Assembly: GCA_016763335.1 (NCBI GenBank)
Contig: JAESUD010000351.1
Coordinates: 1-12,597 of the forward strand
DNA: 12,597 bases
Reading direction: 5' to 3'
DNA from: Emcibacteraceae bacterium
GTDB lineage: Bacteria; Pseudomonadota; Alphaproteobacteria; Sphingomonadales; Emcibacteraceae
The notes under the pieces were generated by a model. It saw nothing but the letters and a program-made list of their open reading frames with translations. It had not been told where the DNA came from and made no database searches. Positions 1 to 8,656 of the stretch are shown here, one piece after another. Positions within the stretch are counted from its first letter, which is position 1; every line of letters starts with the position of its first letter. The position numbers and the translations under genes were made by a program.

Positions 1-984
1 ACCCATCATAAGGCGATGGCCTACCTTTCCTATGGGATCAGTCAGGGCGAGGGTTTTATTATTATTACCGGTGAGATTGGCTCAGGTAAAACGACGCTTG
101 TAGGGCGATTGCTACAAAGCTTGGATCCAACTCAGTTTGTTACAGCTAAAATTGTAACTTCTCAGCTTGATGCTGATAATATTCTTAAAATGGTGGCTGC
201 GGCATTTGGTATTGATATTCGCAATACTGATAAAGCAATTATGATCACAGAAATTGAAAAGCTTCTCCGTAATAACAATCGACTTGGTAAAAATACTCTT
301 CTGCTTATTGATGAAGCACAGAATTTAACGACATCTGCCCTTGAAGAGCTCAGAATGTTATCTAACTTCCAAGAAGGTAATAAAGCTTTACTACAAAGTT
401 TTCTCGTAGGGCAGCCGGAATTTCGTGATAAATGGGCATTTGATCCAGCGTTAGAACAGTTGCGTCAAAGAGTTATCGCCACTCATCATCTGTCGTCGAT
501 GAGTGCAGAAGAAACCAAAGAATATATTGAACATCGCCTTACACTTGTTAACTGGAAGGGTAACCCGGCATTTACTGAGGATGCCAATGCGGAAATTTAT
601 AATTATTCCGGTGGAGTTCCTCGTAAGTTAAATACTCTTTGTACACGTATATTACTTTTTGGTGCGATAGAGGAACTTGACGTTATAGACGGTGAGATGG
701 TGAAAGAAGTTTTGGCCGATATGGAACAAGATAATTATGCCGCATCGCCAGGTGCGAGATCATTACAAAATGGCGGAATGAGTGTGAGCGGTCTAAATGA
801 TAATGATGCTATGGCTCATATTTCTGAAGAAGCCCTTGAAGAAGCAAAAGAGGCAGGACTTAACGCATCATCCGAGCTTATCAAGCTGCGCAAACGCATC
901 GTAAGGCTCGAGAAAAATATAAAAATACATGATAAGACCATTAAAGGGACTATCGGCATCGTAGAAGATATGCTCAACGCATAA
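1..984 (+). CDS. XrtA/PEP-CTERM locus secretion-type ATPase (5'-partial)
   Basis: AAA+ ATPase of the ExeA/GspA-like family that accompanies exosortase A exopolysaccharide loci, probably a cytoplasmic or inner-membrane-associated motor or regulator of polysaccharide or protein export. The frame is open from base 1 (Thr-His-His-Lys-Ala before the ATG at 16), and family members usually have sequence ahead of this 'H-x-A-x-AYLxYG' block, so the gene is cut by the window edge and the ATG at 16 is internal. Counting from that Met, Walker A is GEIGSGKTT (19-27) and Walker B is LLLIDEAQ (95-102). The GGVPRKLN block near 195-202 is the sensor-2-like region of this family. Residues 230-322 form a variable tail ending in a charged, probably coiled-coil helix (LIKLRKRIVRLEKNI). 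It ends in TAA, 22 nt before the deacetylase gene, so the two are likely one operon. The family call is firm; the exact role in export is inferred. Confidence 0.9.
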   Translation, partial: THHKAMAYLSYGISQGEGFIIITGEIGSGKTTLVGRLLQSLDPTQFVTAKIVTSQLDADNILKMVAAAFGIDIRNTDKAIMITEIEKLLRNNNRLGKNTLLLIDEAQNLTTSALEELRMLSNFQEGNKALLQSFLVGQPEFRDKWAFDPALEQLRQRVIATHHLSSMSAEETKEYIEHRLTLVNWKGNPAFTEDANAEIYNYSGGVPRKLNTLCTRILLFGAIEELDVIDGEMVKEVLADMEQDNYAASPGARSLQNGGMSVSGLNDNDAMAHISEEALEEAKEAGLNASSELIKLRKRIVRLEKNIKIHDKTIKGTIGIVEDMLNA

Positions 985-1006
985 TCAATGGGGAAGCTGA
1001 AATATC

Positions 1007-1900
1007 ATGACTGCAACCATGCTCAAAAAAACTGAAGGTGATTTCCAACAACCTACGCAACGCATAATTAATGCAATGACTGTTGATGTTGAGGATTATT
1101 TTCATGTTGGTGCCTTTGAAAATGATATTTCAAGAGATGACTGGGACGGGCTTGAATGCCGGGTAGAAAGAAACACTGATAAAGTTTTAGAGCTTTTTGC
1201 ACGTTATCATGTCAAAGCGACCTTTTTCGTTTTGGGGTGGGTATGTGAGCGTTATCCGGAATTGATACGGAAAATTCATAAAGCAGGCCATGAAGTGGCC
1301 AGTCACAGTATCGGCCATCACCGGGTTAGCGATCTGACACGGGAAGAGTTTGTTGATGATATTACGCGGTCAAAAAAGCTGCTTGAAGATACCATTGGTG
1401 CAGCGGTAATTGGTTACCGTGCGCCGAGCTTTTCCATTGGGGAAAAAAACTTGTGGGCGCTTCAATGTTTGATGGAAGCCGGGTATTTGTACAGTTCGAG
1501 CATTTATCCAATACGCCATGATCATTACGGCATGCCAAATGCGCCAAGATTTTCATTTTATCCGATAGAAAATAGTGAATTTCTTGAAATGCCGGTAACG
1601 ACATTTACAGTGCTGGATAAAAAATTTCCTTGTGGTGGCGGTGGCTATTTTCGCTTGCTTCCTTATGCATTATCAAAAATGGCCATGAACAGAGTGAATA
1701 ATAAAGACCAGAGAGCCTGTATTTTTTATTTTCATCCATGGGAAATTGACCCTGGGCAACCGCGACAGGAGCATGCCAGTTTGAAGTCGAAATTCCGTCA
1801 TTATACCAATCTTAAAGTCATGGAACAAAAAATTGAAAAATTACTGATAGATTTTAAGTGGGGCAGGATGGATGAAATTTATCTTGGTGGAGATAATTAA
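1007..1900 (+). CDS. XrtA-system polysaccharide deacetylase (NodB-like, DUF3473 tail)
   Basis: Metal-dependent carbohydrate esterase of the NodB/CE4 fold, in the subfamily found in exosortase A loci; it probably removes acetyl groups from an exopolysaccharide. It has 297 aa, normal for the subfamily. Visible motifs are TVDVEDYFHV (25-34, catalytic and metal Asp around 27/30), HSIGH (100-104, the two metal-binding His), RAPSFSIG (138-145) and FYFHPWE (240-246, catalytic His 243). The region after about residue 180 (PRFSFYPIEN, GGGGYFRLLPY) matches the C-terminal extension typical of XrtA-linked deacetylases. There is no signal peptide. The ATG at 1007 has GGGGAAG at 990-996; an ATG at 1019 is an alternative. 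The stop abuts the GTG of the next gene, indicating translational coupling. Confidence 0.93.
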   Translation: MTATMLKKTEGDFQQPTQRIINAMTVDVEDYFHVGAFENDISRDDWDGLECRVERNTDKVLELFARYHVKATFFVLGWVCERYPELIRKIHKAGHEVASHSIGHHRVSDLTREEFVDDITRSKKLLEDTIGAAVIGYRAPSFSIGEKNLWALQCLMEAGYLYSSSIYPIRHDHYGMPNAPRFSFYPIENSEFLEMPVTTFTVLDKKFPCGGGGYFRLLPYALSKMAMNRVNNKDQRACIFYFHPWEIDPGQPRQEHASLKSKFRHYTNLKVMEQKIEKLLIDFKWGRMDEIYLGGDN

Positions 1901-2938
1901 GTGATTGAAATTAAAAGAATAGATGTTGCTGCAGATTGTTCGGCATGGGATAAATATGTTTTGGAACATAGCAGTTCAAGCGTATTTCATATGTCTGGAT
2001 GGGGACGTAGTGTTCATAAAAGTATGGGGCATGATGTATATTATTTATATGCGCAAAAAGACGGGGAAATTTGTGGAATATTGCCGCTTACTCATATTAA
2101 AAGCCGTTTGTTTGGTAATTCATTAGTATCGGTGGCTTTTTCTGTTGGCGGCGGACCATTATTTGATAACCAGGAAGCGCTTGATAAATTAGACAATGAA
2201 GCCAAACGCATAGCCGATGAACTTGGTGTCAGCGCCATGGAATATCGCCAAATGAAACGTTGCCATGAAAACTGGCCGATTAAAGCAGAGACATATTCGA
2301 CATTTCGTAAAGAGCTCAGCGCTGATAACGAAGAAAATATGTTGGCAATTCCGCGTAAACAACGTGCGATGGTGCGCAAAGGTATTAAGTTTGGGCTGAC
2401 ATACGATATCGATGATAACGTTGATAGGTTATTTCATTTATATTCCACAAGTGTTAGAAACCTTGGTACGCCGGTATTTCCAAAATCACTTTTTAAAGCT
2501 TTAAAAAACGAATTTAAAGAAGACTGCGAGATATTAACGGTATCAGCGCCGGACGGTGAGGCTATTTCCAGCGTGATGAGTTTTTATTTTAAGAATGAAA
2601 TTGTGCCTTATTATGGCGGTGGTGGTTTCTCAGCGCGTTCATATGCGGCAAATGATTTTATGTATTGGTCGGTTATGGAACATGCGGTTTCGGCGCGCGG
2701 GGCAACATTATTTGATTTTGGCCGCAGTAAAAATGGCACAGGGGCCTTTAGTTTCAAGAAAAACTGGGGATTTGAGCCGACGGCACTTGAATATGAATAT
2801 TATCTTCGTGAAGGTGATGATATTCCTGAAATTAACCCGCTTAATCCAAAATATCAGTTGATGATCAAAACGTGGCGCAAGCTACCGTTGCCGGTTGCTA
2901 ATTTCCTTGGACCATTTATCGCTAAATCTTTAGGTTAA
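1901..2938 (+). CDS. FemAB-family protein of the XrtA/PEP-CTERM system
   Basis: A GNAT-fold, FemAB-like acyl- or aminoacyltransferase of the subfamily tied to exosortase A loci; its substrate is not established. It has 345 aa. The N-terminal half has the family pattern FHMSGWGRSV (29-38), GHDVYYLYA (43-51), ILPLTHIKSRLFG (60-72) and a glycine-rich stretch (83-86). The second half has PYYGGGGFSA (236-245) and FDFGRSKNGTG (271-281) followed by FKKNWGFEP (285-293), the most conserved block of this group. The GTG start directly follows the TAA of the deacetylase, with GGTGGAG at 1886-1892 as ribosome site. It is the last plus-strand gene of the operon and ends 4 nt from the end of a convergent small gene. 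No clear terminator hairpin was seen between the two. Confidence 0.92.
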   Translation: MIEIKRIDVAADCSAWDKYVLEHSSSSVFHMSGWGRSVHKSMGHDVYYLYAQKDGEICGILPLTHIKSRLFGNSLVSVAFSVGGGPLFDNQEALDKLDNEAKRIADELGVSAMEYRQMKRCHENWPIKAETYSTFRKELSADNEENMLAIPRKQRAMVRKGIKFGLTYDIDDNVDRLFHLYSTSVRNLGTPVFPKSLFKALKNEFKEDCEILTVSAPDGEAISSVMSFYFKNEIVPYYGGGGFSARSYAANDFMYWSVMEHAVSARGATLFDFGRSKNGTGAFSFKKNWGFEPTALEYEYYLREGDDIPEINPLNPKYQLMIKTWRKLPLPVANFLGPFIAKSLG

Positions 2939-5597: not shown

Positions 5598-5616
5598 CTG
5601 TTAAATTGTTTTACAG
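5598..5616. promoter_or_regulatory. Imperfect dyad, possible enhancer site 2
   Basis: CTGTTAAA-TTG-TTTTACAG has arms that pair at 7 of 8 positions. It is centred about 100 bp upstream of the predicted start, a typical place for an activator of a sigma-54 promoter. The function is inferred. Confidence 0.4.
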
Positions 5617-5677: not shown

Positions 5678-5694
5678 TTGGCACGATTATTGCT
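5678..5694 (+). promoter_or_regulatory. Sigma-54 (RpoN) -24/-12 promoter
   Basis: TTGGCACGATTATTGCT matches the sigma-54 consensus TTGGCACG-N4-TTGCW at every defined base, with exactly 10 bp between the GG (5680-5681) and the GC (5692-5693). Transcription should begin near 5704-5706, leaving a leader of about 75 nt before the ATG at 5781. It points into the Tat-protein/PqqD/kinase cassette. From literature memory, XrtA/PEP-CTERM genes in some bacteria are controlled by the PrsK/PrsR two-component system together with RpoN, which would link this cassette to the exopolysaccharide system; that link is inference. Confidence 0.85.
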
Positions 5695-5724
5695 ATTTTA
5701 GATGTAGATTTTTTTTAATAGTAA

Positions 5725-5755
5725 TTGCCACGACCAGAAATATTGGAATTGGCAA
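5725..5755 (+). promoter_or_regulatory. 5' UTR inverted repeat / hairpin
   Basis: Nested, symmetric stem: TTGCCA (5725-5730) pairs with TGGCAA (5750-5755), then a 3/3 internal loop, then CCA (5734-5736) with TGG (5744-5746), closing a 7-nt loop. It lies in the predicted leader, 15 nt ahead of the ribosome site. It could be an mRNA hairpin or a protein-binding dyad. There is no U-run after it, so it is not a terminator. Confidence 0.4.
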
Positions 5756-5780
5756 AAGTTTATGGAACTGGGTGAATAGT

Positions 5781-6212
5781 ATGACCAAAGTAAATGATGC
5801 TGAAGTAAACAAGAGTACGGGACTAAGTCAAAGGCTACATCGTCGTAGTTTGTTAAAGGCGGGCGCTGTTATTGCGCCGATCGTGGTTACGTTGCATGGT
5901 GGTGTTCCGCTTGCGCATGCTGATTCAGCCGGGCTTTGTGTAATGCAATTGGTTGATATTGCCAATGATTCATCTGATAGCCGTCATGGGTACATGCAAA
6001 TTCCAATGAAAGGCGGCCAAATTGCGCAGCCACTTATTGGATTAACTCATAATCAGGAAGCAAAACTTTCAGATTATCCTGATGGCACAGAGCTTGAGGC
6101 TTTTAATGCAAGTCCAGCTCATTGGAACTTTATTGCTGATCCGACTAATAACAGGTTTGGTTTTTCTTGCGTAAATTCAATTGGACATTATACTAACGCT
6201 AAGCTTAGCTAA
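5781..6212 (+). CDS. Small Tat-exported protein of unknown function, C-terminal Ser
   Basis: I do not recognise a named family. From the ATG at 5781 the protein has 143 aa; GTG 5772 is in frame but the GGTGA at 5771-5775 is well placed for 5781. Counting from 5772, the N-terminus has a twin-arginine signal: HRRSLLKAG (23-31), a hydrophobic stretch (AVIAPIVVTLHGGVPL), and a cleavage site after AHA at about residue 50. The mature part of about 96 aa has two Cys (56, 133) that could pair in the periplasm, is rich in Asn, Asp and Ser, and ends in Asn-Ala-Lys-Leu-Ser. There is no PEP-CTERM sorting tail or second membrane helix. It is the first gene behind the sigma-54 promoter and lies 71 nt upstream of the PqqD-like gene. 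The context suggests it is the substrate of the cassette, but this is inference. Confidence 0.8.
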   Translation: MTKVNDAEVNKSTGLSQRLHRRSLLKAGAVIAPIVVTLHGGVPLAHADSAGLCVMQLVDIANDSSDSRHGYMQIPMKGGQIAQPLIGLTHNQEAKLSDYPDGTELEAFNASPAHWNFIADPTNNRFGFSCVNSIGHYTNAKLS

Positions 6213-6283
6213 GAATTGCTCAATAGAATTTAAATTATAGGAATAAGTAAATTACTGTAATTAACAATAAGAATTTTGATGAA

Positions 6284-6559
6284 ATGGCTGTGTACCGGGT
6301 TCCGGACACGGCCAATTTATTATGGTCCGGATGGGACGATGCCTGTATTGTTTATGATCAACGCAGTGGTCATACACAGGTACTTAATGATTTTGCACGA
6401 GAATTACTTGCTATTTATGAAGACGGGCAAAAAACGCTTGTTGAAATTTATGAAGAATTCGAAAAAATCTTTGAAAAAAAACTAGATGAAAATCTTAAAT
6501 TAAAAATATTAGAATCAGTCAGAGAATTTGATAATATGGGTTTGATCGAACCCGTATAA
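6284..6559 (+). CDS. PqqD-like protein of an HPr-rel-A type system
   Basis: A 91-aa PqqD-family protein. PqqD-like domains (RiPP recognition elements) bind a peptide and present it to a modifying enzyme. Visible family features are the N-terminal strand pattern with LLWSGWDDACIVYDQRSGHTQVLNDFARELLAIY (about 12-45), in which a 'hTxxLNxxA' block leads into the helix, and the C-terminal EFDNMGLIEPV (81-91), typical of the PqqD fold end. The middle helix is strongly charged (EEFEKIFEKKLDENLK). The start at 6284 has only a weak upstream site (GATGA). It is directly followed, after 29 nt, by an HprK-related kinase, the arrangement of the HPr-rel-A cassette. The family call is fairly firm; its binding partner is not known. 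Confidence 0.82.
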   Translation: MAVYRVPDTANLLWSGWDDACIVYDQRSGHTQVLNDFARELLAIYEDGQKTLVEIYEEFEKIFEKKLDENLKLKILESVREFDNMGLIEPV

Positions 6560-6588
6560 AATAATAATGACAAATAAAGAAATCAATT

Positions 6589-7581
6589 ATGCCTGAGATA
6601 AGCGTGTTTCATAATAATAAAAACTTGGTAACGCTTAATGATCAGCAACTTGATGCACGTCTTGCTGCGGATGGGGCACAGTTGGAAATCGGACCTTTTA
6701 CAGTTAATGTATCGTTGGGTTTTGAAAATATTCGCCGTGAATTTATTAATATATACCGTGATTACCCATTTTATGACGAGACAGTTATATGTGATAATTA
6801 TATAAAAATTTATGGCCGTAATTTTTACCGCAAATATATTAAACCACAGGCGTTTGTGGATGTGGGGATGAATGATGAATTTATTCCGCTTCCGGCGAGC
6901 CTTGGCATGGTCAGCCTCGAAATGGGGCTTAATTGGCAAGTGGCGTCTGCGTGCAAACAATATTTAATGTTTCATGCGGGTGTTATATCAAAGGATGGCG
7001 TTGGATTAGTTATGCCGGCCATGTCGGGAAGTGGGAAAAGTACGCTGGCGGCGGGTTTGTCTTACCGGGGGTGGCAGCTTCATTCGGATGAATTTGGCTT
7101 GCTTGATATGGAAAGCGGTGAACTAGTTCCTTACCCACGAGCGGTTTCCTTAAAAAATCAATCAATTGCGGTAATGAAAAAATGGGTATCAGATGTTAGT
7201 GATGACCCGCTTAGCCATTTTACCGATGAATTTGAAGGCACACCTAAAGGCACAATCTGTTATTTGCGGCCGCCAAAAAAATCAATTGAAGACATGCATA
7301 AAAGAACAAAGCCAAATGTAGTGATATTGCCGATTTATGACGCGGATGCCAAACCCGCAATTAGACCAATAACCAAAACAATGGCTATGTTCAGGATTGT
7401 AATGTCATCGGCCAATTACGGTGATATTGGCGCCGACGCATTTAAGGCTATTTCAAAAGTCATTGATAATTCGTCTGTGTGCGAAATAATATACCCGTCG
7501 CTTGAGGATGCTGTGAAATTGGTTGAAGAGTTCGTCGCTGAAAATGTACATTGCCAAGAGAGTGGTGATGAAAATGACTAA
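6589..7581 (+). CDS. HprK-related kinase (HPr-rel-A type)
   Basis: A 330-aa protein related to the C-terminal kinase domain of HPr Ser kinase/phosphorylase. From about residue 125 the sequence follows the HprK core: MFHAGVI (127-133) with H129 where HprK has its catalytic-loop His, PAMSGSGKST (143-152) as Walker A with K150/S151, then RGWQLHSDEFGLLD (160-173), where D167-E168 replace the Asp-Asp pair of true HprK. The first 120 residues are specific to this group. No HPr gene is in the window and true HprK regulates sugar transport, so a different substrate is likely. Flanked by PqqD-like and nucleotidyltransferase genes, it resembles tailoring kinases of some lasso-peptide clusters that phosphorylate a C-terminal Ser. 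The next gene overlaps its end by 8 nt. Confidence 0.88.
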   Translation: MPEISVFHNNKNLVTLNDQQLDARLAADGAQLEIGPFTVNVSLGFENIRREFINIYRDYPFYDETVICDNYIKIYGRNFYRKYIKPQAFVDVGMNDEFIPLPASLGMVSLEMGLNWQVASACKQYLMFHAGVISKDGVGLVMPAMSGSGKSTLAAGLSYRGWQLHSDEFGLLDMESGELVPYPRAVSLKNQSIAVMKKWVSDVSDDPLSHFTDEFEGTPKGTICYLRPPKKSIEDMHKRTKPNVVILPIYDADAKPAIRPITKTMAMFRIVMSSANYGDIGADAFKAISKVIDNSSVCEIIYPSLEDAVKLVEEFVAENVHCQESGDEND

Positions 7582-8656
7582 TGTAATCACCGAAAAAAAT
7601 ATTTTGGTCACTATTCTTAAAGATCCGGCAAAAATGTTGGAACTATCGCCCGAAGATTGGAATGAGTTATTACGAGAAGCAAAAATAGCCAACCTCGCTG
7701 GAAGGTTAGCTGCGGATAGTAAGCTACTTGATATAAATGATAAATTGCCATTGAAGGTGCGGGATTTATTTAAATCTTTTTCTTATACCAGTGCCGGATC
7801 GACACGTATGATTAAGTGGGAAATGAACCGGGTAAAACGCGCACTCAGGGGCAGTAATGACAAGATAATTTTGCTTAAAGGCGCGGCATATATTGAAAAG
7901 CAGTTAAATTGTACCCGTGGCCGAAATAGTGTTGATCTGGATATTCTGGTCGCAAAAACCCGTATCGACTGGGTCGAGGAACAGTTTCTCGCCGCCGGAT
8001 GGCAACATCATCTTGAAAATGATTATGATCAGAAGTTTTACCGGGAATATTCCCATGAATTACCACCGATGATTCACCCAGATCGCCGTATAAGCATTGA
8101 TGTCCATCATAGTATTTTACCAGTGACAAGCCGGGTTTATCCGGATATGTCAAAATTAATAGAATGTGCGGTAAAATGCAGTGATGGGTTTTATGTTTTC
8201 TCTGATGTTGATATTATTCTACATAGTGTTGTCCACCAATTTCAGGATGGGGAAGTTCGCTCTAGCCTTAGAAATTTGCTTGAGCAACATGATATGTTTA
8301 TGGAATTTGGTAAGAATTCTGAATTTTGGCAAAAGCTTGTGCCGCGCGCTGAAGAGCTAGGATTTACCCGTGCGTTATATTATGCGTTAAGATATACTAG
8401 TATAATATTCGGCACGGGAATCCCTGATCATGTGACGCAGGCAATAAAACATCACCAACCGGGGTTTGTAACACGTTCATTGATGGATTGGATGGTGCCA
8501 GCGGTCATATCACCGACAATTGGGGCAAGAGGAGTTAGCCGTTATTTATCGGCTAACGGGCTTTACATTCGTTCTCATTGGTTACGAATGCCGCCACTAT
8601 TACTGATGAAGCATTTGAGCATAAAGTTTTTTAGACGGTTTAAGTCTGAGGGGTAA
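7574..8656 (+). CDS. Nucleotidyltransferase-fold protein (NTP_transf_5-like)
   Basis: About 360 aa from the ATG at 7574; an ATG at 7568 is a near-equal alternative, while the longer reading from 7523 lies mostly inside the kinase gene and is unlikely. GGTGAT at 7564-7569 supports 7574. The core shows the pattern of this family: IILLKGAAYIEK (98-109), then RGRNSVDLDILV (115-126) with the metal-binding Asp-x-Asp at 121/123, and a third acidic strand SIDVHH (174-179). The helical C-terminal half is less informative. Proteins of this family sit beside HprK-like kinases in lasso-peptide clusters, where one was reported to add sugars onto the phosphorylated C-terminus. Here it is last in the cassette and its 3' end overlaps the convergent gph by 17 nt. 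The exact reaction is unknown. Confidence 0.82.
   Translation: MTNVITEKNILVTILKDPAKMLELSPEDWNELLREAKIANLAGRLAADSKLLDINDKLPLKVRDLFKSFSYTSAGSTRMIKWEMNRVKRALRGSNDKIILLKGAAYIEKQLNCTRGRNSVDLDILVAKTRIDWVEEQFLAAGWQHHLENDYDQKFYREYSHELPPMIHPDRRISIDVHHSILPVTSRVYPDMSKLIECAVKCSDGFYVFSDVDIILHSVVHQFQDGEVRSSLRNLLEQHDMFMEFGKNSEFWQKLVPRAEELGFTRALYYALRYTSIIFGTGIPDHVTQAIKHHQPGFVTRSLMDWMVPAVISPTIGARGVSRYLSANGLYIRSHWLRMPPLLLMKHLSIKFFRRFKSEG

Follow-up and report, generated by a model that had tools for sequence, protein, structure and literature searches.

A twin-arginine signal protein as the probable substrate of the HPr-rel-A kinase cassette

What does the HPr-rel-A cassette, a named gene set built around an HprK-like kinase, act upon? 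We addressed this question in a stretch of 12,597 nt (the window) from an Emcibacteraceae bacterium (GenBank assembly GCA_016763335.1, contig JAESUD010000351.1, forward strand), in which four genes on the + strand encode, in order, a protein with a twin-arginine translocation (Tat) signal, a PqqD-like protein, an HprK-like kinase (HprK_rel_A) and a nucleotidyltransferase-like protein (Table 1). The PqqD-like protein and the kinase both score as HPr-rel-A members (TIGR04353, 47 bits, over the cut-off of 35; TIGR04352, 258 bits, over the cut-off of 200), and the fourth protein belongs to PF14907 (155.7 bits, cut-off 31.2). A first-pass annotation had described four same-strand genes, the last two overlapping, behind a sigma-54 promoter, and open reading frames, family models and an exact promoter match confirm that layout; the overlap follows from the likely nucleotidyltransferase start, ATG 7568 or 7574, in a frame that opens at TTG 7523.

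We consider it probable that the cassette serves to produce and modify a single dedicated exported protein, the Tat protein, a serine of which is phosphorylated after the PqqD-like protein has bound its leader. In this scheme a PrsR/sigma-54 promoter would turn the cassette on, and the PqqD-like protein would bind the signal peptide of the newly made Tat protein through a PxxLTL stretch, marking it for the enzymes and probably delaying its export. The HprK-like kinase would phosphorylate the serine of a C-terminal SCVNSI motif (Ser133), and onto this phosphate the PF14907 enzyme may build further, for instance by adding a sugar. Export of the finished protein by Tat would follow, signal peptidase would remove the leader, and Cys53 and Cys130 would pair outside. 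For leader binding, phosphorylation, sugar transfer, the order of events and the disulfide we reason from known relatives; on the gene patterns, the Tat protein is well supported as the dedicated substrate, and by analogy phosphorylation of its serine is likely.

The case is built on gene association, conservation, the constraint on the leader, the conserved serine, co-variation with the kinase and a promoter box. The leader of the Tat protein (HRRSLLKAGAVIAPIVVTLHGGVPLAHA) reads as a Tat signal, with an RR motif (HRRSLLK), a hydrophobic stretch and AHA before the mature part; 96 residues follow AHA and the two cysteines are C53 and C130 (numbered from ATG 5781), in agreement with the roughly 96 mature residues and two cysteines annotated earlier. 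Scans of NCBIfam (E 0.01) and Pfam (E 0.1) gave no match to the protein, nor did any of ten further Tat proteins from the family exceed the cut-off of an NCBIfam or Pfam model. With the Tat protein as query, no relative turned up in viral contigs. An RR leader is present in 109 of the 112 proteins collected (the exceptions are a fragment and a broken gene that occurs twice), and the mature parts vary widely, from about 50 to 230 residues.

Three sets of loci were compared. The related set comprised 60 genomes including that of the window, 35 of them with the kinase over cut-off; its 35 loci are the 34 over cut-off besides the window plus one with a nearly full-length kinase just below it (G037), L067 with its distant kinase being excluded. 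The named-genome set held the best 80 of 331 kinase relatives, and the phylum sample the best 30 of 51 loci, with 1.5 kb flanks, from 397 genomes of which 51 carry the kinase over cut-off. The sets overlap, in that 20 of the 80 named loci sit on contigs equal in length to contigs of the relatives' loci, and sample locus L189 is identical to L157 of the training set.

Among the relatives, 34 of 35 loci have a same-strand RR-signal protein upstream of the kinase (31 by profile; L057, L060 and L066 by eye; the broken gene of L064 counted as present). The Tat gene is likewise present in 75 of the 80 named loci and in 27 of the 30 sample loci (24 by a profile frozen beforehand, one of these identical to a training protein; L180, L181 and L205 by inspection). 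The sole miss among the relatives, L063, is a contig end, with the missing part and its Tat gene on another contig of the same genome, and in four of the five misses of the named set the sequence ahead of the kinase match is 3 to 731 bases long. Three sample loci (L191, L192 and L196) have the kinase but neither a Tat gene nor a PqqD-like gene nearby. Across the sets eight distinct loci miss the Tat gene, four of these being contig edges, and an iterated profile found the PqqD-like gene in 104 of 110 kinase loci. The Tat gene, the PqqD-like gene and the kinase thus recur together across the phylum, on which ground we rejected chance co-occurrence. Absence of the Tat gene from most related cassettes, the result that the first-pass annotation had singled out as telling against its idea, was not what the neighbourhood survey it proposed returned. 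Its reading of the Tat protein as the substrate is partly supported overall, through this recurrence and through the constrained leader, the conserved C-terminal serine and the co-variation of subtypes with the kinase tree described below.

Two family Tat proteins stand upstream of one kinase in L034 (6704-8112) and L126 (3099-4603), so some cassettes may have two substrates. The Tat protein of L165 (4766-5666), from a Bathymodiolus methanotrophic endosymbiont, is split over two frames, one with the leader and the other with an SCWTSL motif, and its gene looks broken or misassembled.

Signal peptides are usually less conserved than the mature part, and the trend here is the opposite. Mean pairwise identity is 0.88 in the signal-peptide region versus 0.53 for residues 48-126 in homologue alignment A1 (25 homologues), and 0.71 for the leader versus 0.35 for the mature part in alignment A3. 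A PxxLTL-type motif (P, one or two residues, [LIVMA][TS][LIVFM]) occurs in 84 of 88 cassette leaders and in 1 of 29 ordinary Tat leaders drawn from the same and related genomes, counts that express conservation and not independent recurrence, the leaders being related by descent and the pattern having been defined with them in view. The 88 are 68 nonredundant proteins (109 reduced at 60% identity, including two class B proteins and one fragment) and 20 from the phylum sample, whose seven class B proteins were excluded; the same additions and exclusions apply to comparisons of tails. We rejected plain Tat constraint as the cause of leader conservation, since 28 of the 29 ordinary leaders lack the motif. 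A signal peptide that outconserves its mature part and carries such a motif may double as a recognition leader, one peptide being both export signal and target of the PqqD-like protein. Discrete RiPP recognition elements (RREs; RiPP, ribosomally synthesised and post-translationally modified peptide) of lasso systems recognise a [Y/W]xxPx[L/V/I/F/A] motif, and the hydrophobic part of Tat signals carries the specificity for redox enzyme maturation protein (REMP) chaperones (PMC3316669/PMC3712460).

A distant cassette relative, L067 (6537-9485; G005:C123), has a PqqD-like protein and an HprK-like kinase, an 85-residue protein whose leader lacks RR and has YAVPVV at the place of the PxxLTL-type motif, and a 411-residue protein that resembles a nucleotidyltransferase by look, outside the family scan. 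Its leader is possibly a bridge between leader types.

At the other end of the protein, C130 and S133 are invariant in A1 and A3. They belong to a motif of the form (S/T)C-Phi-x-S-Phi. Its pattern, with the cysteine relaxed to [CA]Phi-x-S-Phi, occurs in the last 30 residues of 57 of the 68 nonredundant proteins (shuffled mean 2.4, maximum 6), and a reading of the collected tails saw no threonine in place of the motif serine. Thirteen kinase loci lack the motif cysteine (AYTSL, SASSL and similar) and retain the serine and the hydrophobic residue that follows it, L127 (GASII) fitting loosely. Ser133 is the best candidate phosphosite on this conservation, and a Cys53-Cys130 disulfide is likely; Phi-x-S-Phi is reminiscent of HPr around its Ser46. 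An extra C-terminal tail like NNGWGNGDQPAPGGSLPNNNAENGP extends beyond the CxxS motif in the close homologues P0002, P0007, P0019 and P0021-P0024.

The form of this C-terminus follows the kinase. Mapped on the kinase tree, the subtypes (Cys type, Cys-less type, class B, L148 by itself) change three times, as few as possible, where shuffled labels average 25.8, with the eight loci lacking a Tat gene left unlabelled, the labels assigned by hand and the Cys-less group formally tested after the first tree had been seen. The Cys-less group and class B are each set apart by a single branch, moderately supported (75 and 68 in IQ-TREE, 95 and 91 in FastTree), and Chromatiaceae are divided between the Cys and Cys-less groups together with their kinases.

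Both enzymes keep invariant residues. Kinase residues His129, Lys150, Asp167 and Glu168 are invariant in all 111 kinases compared, and in the PDB the kinase profile weakly matched HprK chains across the P-loop and Asp pair, with a best E of 3.6e-4. The Asp-x-Asp pair of the nucleotidyltransferase is present in 98/98 proteins with letters at that site. Comparison of the PqqD-like protein with the PDB by sequence gave nothing convincing.

The promoter places the cassette in a regulatory context. Proteobacterial PEP-CTERM genes share a 17-nt box ending TTTACA, a spacer with a mean of 62.8 nt and a sigma-54 site (PMC1569441). In the window the spacer is 63 nt, the box agreeing in length, end and spacing, a comparison that covers 6 of its 17 positions, and the promoter fits the PrsR/sigma-54 layout. 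A sigma-54 site with two mismatches or fewer occurs in 40 of 67 related upstream regions (one of the 68 was too short), where shuffles expect 7.2 and the reverse complement gives 11/67. Within the 36 regions that had a sigma-54 core match and enough sequence, exact TTTACA lies 32-92 nt before the site in 25 (0.93 expected), or in 30 with one mismatch allowed (13.7 expected). PrsR itself (TIGR02915) is encoded in the genome of the window at 666 bits (cut-off 502.6). The sigma-54 site is poor, with 3 or 4 mismatches, in the Kordiimonas-type loci L060, L061, L151 and L173, and PrsR is not over cut-off in the related genomes of family f5.

Exosortase A and the cassette co-occur, though not strictly. 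Exosortase A is over cut-off in 29 of 51 cassette genomes versus 12 of 346 others (Fisher p 6e-21, uncorrected for kinship), and in 16 of 36 related genomes it shares a contig with the kinase at a distance of 3 to 14 kb; in several others the two genes stand far apart on one contig (for instance ~187 kb in G247, 292 kb in G283, 2.5 Mb in G036). In the window's genome the exosortase match is on another contig and, at 179.5 bits, below the XrtA cut-off of 208. There was no match at E 0.001 in 5 of 36 cassette-bearing relatives, nor at 1e-20 in 16 of the 51 cassette genomes of the phylum sample, for which reason strict dependence on exosortase A was rejected. The cassette resembles the PEP-CTERM/exosortase A regulon (PrsK-PrsR-sigma-54; PMC1569441, PMC9850573) in its two-part promoter and often in its genomic neighbourhood, and differs in that the Tat protein matches no NCBIfam model at the threshold given above. 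The same scans of NCBIfam and Pfam gave no match to a sorting domain, and we rejected the Tat protein as a PEP-CTERM protein.

Another substrate is conceivable in that setting: the kinase and transferase could work on an intermediate, polysaccharide or small molecule, from the neighbouring exopolysaccharide (EPS) locus, the Tat protein being an unmodified, co-expressed periplasmic binding or assembly protein. The EPS/exosortase neighbourhood and the shared PrsR-type promoter favour this account, but we think it unlikely, as a PqqD-like peptide-binding protein belongs to the set, conservation within the Tat protein is highest in the leader and at the serine, and the 16 sample genomes just mentioned carry the cassette without such an exosortase match. 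A variant that joins the two themes, in which the exported protein bears a serine-linked phospho-glycan coupling it to the exopolysaccharide of the same PrsR/exosortase regulon and the Tat signal is a RiPP-type leader, is doubtful at present; if true, it would mean that a Gram-negative bacterium links protein to polysaccharide by a route that starts in the cytoplasm and continues with Tat export.

Returning to modification of the Tat protein itself, the closest published parallel is found in the LPP RiPPs of Bacillota (lppA-K-B-S-D-N), with an RRE (LppB), an HprK-like kinase (LppK) that modifies serine and not threonine, and a nucleoside triphosphate (NTP) transferase (PMC13381572). Both systems combine a discrete RRE, taken here to be the PqqD-like protein, with an HprK-like kinase and an NTP transferase; in both the precursor has a conserved N-terminus and a variable remainder (LPP precursors span 35-200 residues), there is no cyclase, the genes often lie within polysaccharide loci, and one serine is key, demonstrated in LPP and proposed here. 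In contrast, LPP clusters encode an SpI-like peptidase and an MsbA-like exporter, neither recognised among the scanned genes of the window, with no search for them elsewhere in the genome; the LPP leader motif, YxxPxVLxHQxIxFETxxS, is like VIAPIVVTLHGG here only in its xxPx[LVI] part; and a Tat signal takes the place of the LPP leader, with the serine near the C-terminus (class A) rather than near the new N-terminus.

Another reading is that the Tat protein gives rise to a small secreted peptide, which proteolysis after modification and export frees from its C-terminus as in ordinary RiPPs. A conserved leader, a variable core and a conserved near-C-terminal site are indeed what LPP and lasso precursors have. 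No peptidase gene was recognised in the window, however, and mature parts of such length, together with a recurrent domain in class B, better suit a protein product, making a peptide product improbable in our view. The annotation had already argued that the locus, having no cyclase, leader peptidase or dedicated transporter, is not a lasso-peptide cluster, which holds among the scanned window genes; we rejected that class, neither a macrolactam cyclase nor a leader protease being recognised there.

The parallel with lasso-tailoring enzymes lies in their chemistry. PadeK, SyanK and PsmK/PsmN act on a C-terminal serine of the precursor, PsmN reportedly attaching hexoses to that serine once it is phosphorylated (PMC9266682). 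As in paeninodin and pseudomycoidin, an HprK-like kinase would here serve a C-terminal serine, a candidate in our case, beside a nucleotidyltransferase homologue. The differences are that no macrolactam cyclase or B2 protease was recognised, that the presumed substrate is a Tat protein with ~96 mature residues, and that the catalytic set is His-Lys-Asp-Glu rather than the His-Lys-Asp-Asp of the paeninodin/pseudomycoidin-type kinases. A likeness of another kind is offered by the bufferins and other RiPPs with Sec signal peptides that are modified by multinuclear non-haem iron-dependent oxidases (MNIOs), Sec signals as leaders being called rare (PMC12452194). There too an export signal replaces the classical leader, the substrates are protein-sized and it has been suggested that the signal is masked until modification has finished; the signal is Sec and not Tat (a word absent from PMC12452194), and the enzyme is an iron oxidase and not a kinase/transferase pair. 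We propose that the cassette works like the Bacillota LPP RiPPs and the paeninodin kinases but with Tat as its export route.

HprK, a kinase/phosphorylase, senses metabolites, and the REMP chaperones and the PqqD-like protein belong to different protein families. The REMPs DmsD, TorD and NapD bind Tat signals (PMC3316669, PMC3712460), and in both cases a cytoplasmic protein on a Tat signal peptide would couple maturation to export, by cofactor loading there and, as proposed here, by covalent side-chain modification. The least likely of the alternatives, that phosphorylation is an export gate or reversible signal by which a metabolite-sensing kinase controls release of the Tat protein from a PqqD-like chaperone, would draw on that role of HprK and on the belief that REMP chaperones retain immature Tat precursors (PMC3316669/PMC3712460), but the candidate site lies ~85 residues past the leader and the transferase is usually present too.

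Several observations weigh against modification of a dedicated Tat protein by the full cassette. Locus L116 (Methylococcaceae, 5726-6927) is a true exception, having a PqqD-like gene, kinase and transferase with no Tat gene nearby. The C-terminal motif is missing from class B, which covers 13 loci; C[STA]xSG is present in 11 of the 13 and absent from L178 and L199, and several class B proteins carry the recurrent GYSPGWW/PGYW-type domain. A transferase relative is found in 79 of 80 named loci but in 19 of 30 sample loci (98 of 110 overall), and with a profile in 101 of 110, the nine misses all coming from the sample, where flanks were 1.5 kb. Two Magnetococcales loci were seen with longer flanks (L157, 6930-8627; L167, 6975-8669), and in these a gene of ~565 codons separates kinase and transferase; given such an intervening gene and the short flanks, some of the misses may be out of sight. 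The co-variation of tail and kinase, besides the hand labelling and late test noted with it, supports partnership without proving enzyme-substrate contact because linked operons are co-inherited; the leader motif carries the limits stated with its counts; and the chemistry of PF14907 is unsettled because LppN was inactive in the published heterologous system (PMC13381572). An open frame of ~490 or more codons follows the kinase in sample loci L183, L189, L197 and L203.

With the Tat protein as its probable target, HPr-rel-A, until now a named cassette, can be assigned a likely substrate, within it a candidate acceptor residue, and a regulon. If our reading is true, Tat signal peptides can serve as modification leaders, kinase/NTP-transferase RiPP chemistry reaches beyond the peptides of Bacillota to exported proteins (51 of 397 sampled phylum genomes carry a kinase over cut-off), and the PEP-CTERM/EPS regulon acquires a covalent-modification branch. 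In the full-text literature, whose coverage excludes most subscription papers, we found no paper on HPr-rel-A, on its family accessions or on HprK with exosortase, and PqqD with PEP-CTERM led to another system only.

Table 1. Coordinates of the cassette, its sequence elements and its upstream neighbours within the window.
Feature	Position	Strand	Basis
Tat-signal protein, presumed substrate	5781..6212 (alternative start GTG 5772)	+	recurrence in relatives, homologue alignments
PqqD-like protein, presumed leader-binding element	6284..6559	+	TIGR04353
HprK-like kinase	6589..7581	+	TIGR04352
Nucleotidyltransferase-like protein	7568..8656	+	PF14907
Tat signal peptide region, residues 18-47; presumed second role as leader bound by the PqqD-like protein; extra motif PIVVTL	5832..5921	+	identity, motif counts
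Cys53 codon	5937..5939	+	invariant in A1 and A3
C-terminal motif SCVNSI; Cys130 6168-6170; Ser133 6177-6179, candidate phosphosite	6165..6182	+	conservation
Sigma-54 promoter TGGCACGATTATTGC	5679..5693	+	exact to TGGCAC-N5-TTGC
PrsR-type PEP-CTERM box, 17 nt ending TTTACA, TGTTAAATTGTTTTACA	5599..5615	+	length, TTTACA end, spacing
XrtA-associated ATPase, deacetylase, FemAB-like protein (exopolysaccharide/exosortase-type neighbours, context only)	16..2938	+	NCBIfam

The true start of the PqqD-like gene may lie further upstream than tabulated. Three XrtA/PEP-CTERM-type genes, which the first-pass annotation had missed together with the PrsR-type box, sit ~2.8 kb upstream of the Tat gene: the deacetylase (TIGR03006) and the FemAB-like protein (TIGR03019) are both over cut-off, and the XrtA-associated ATPase (TIGR03015) is below it at 305.5 bits (cut-off 324.5). 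The cassette is further flanked by genes for PhoB (over cut-off), a PhoR-like kinase, a HAD phosphatase and GlmU, and by an open frame, outside the family scan, that resembles GlmS by look only.

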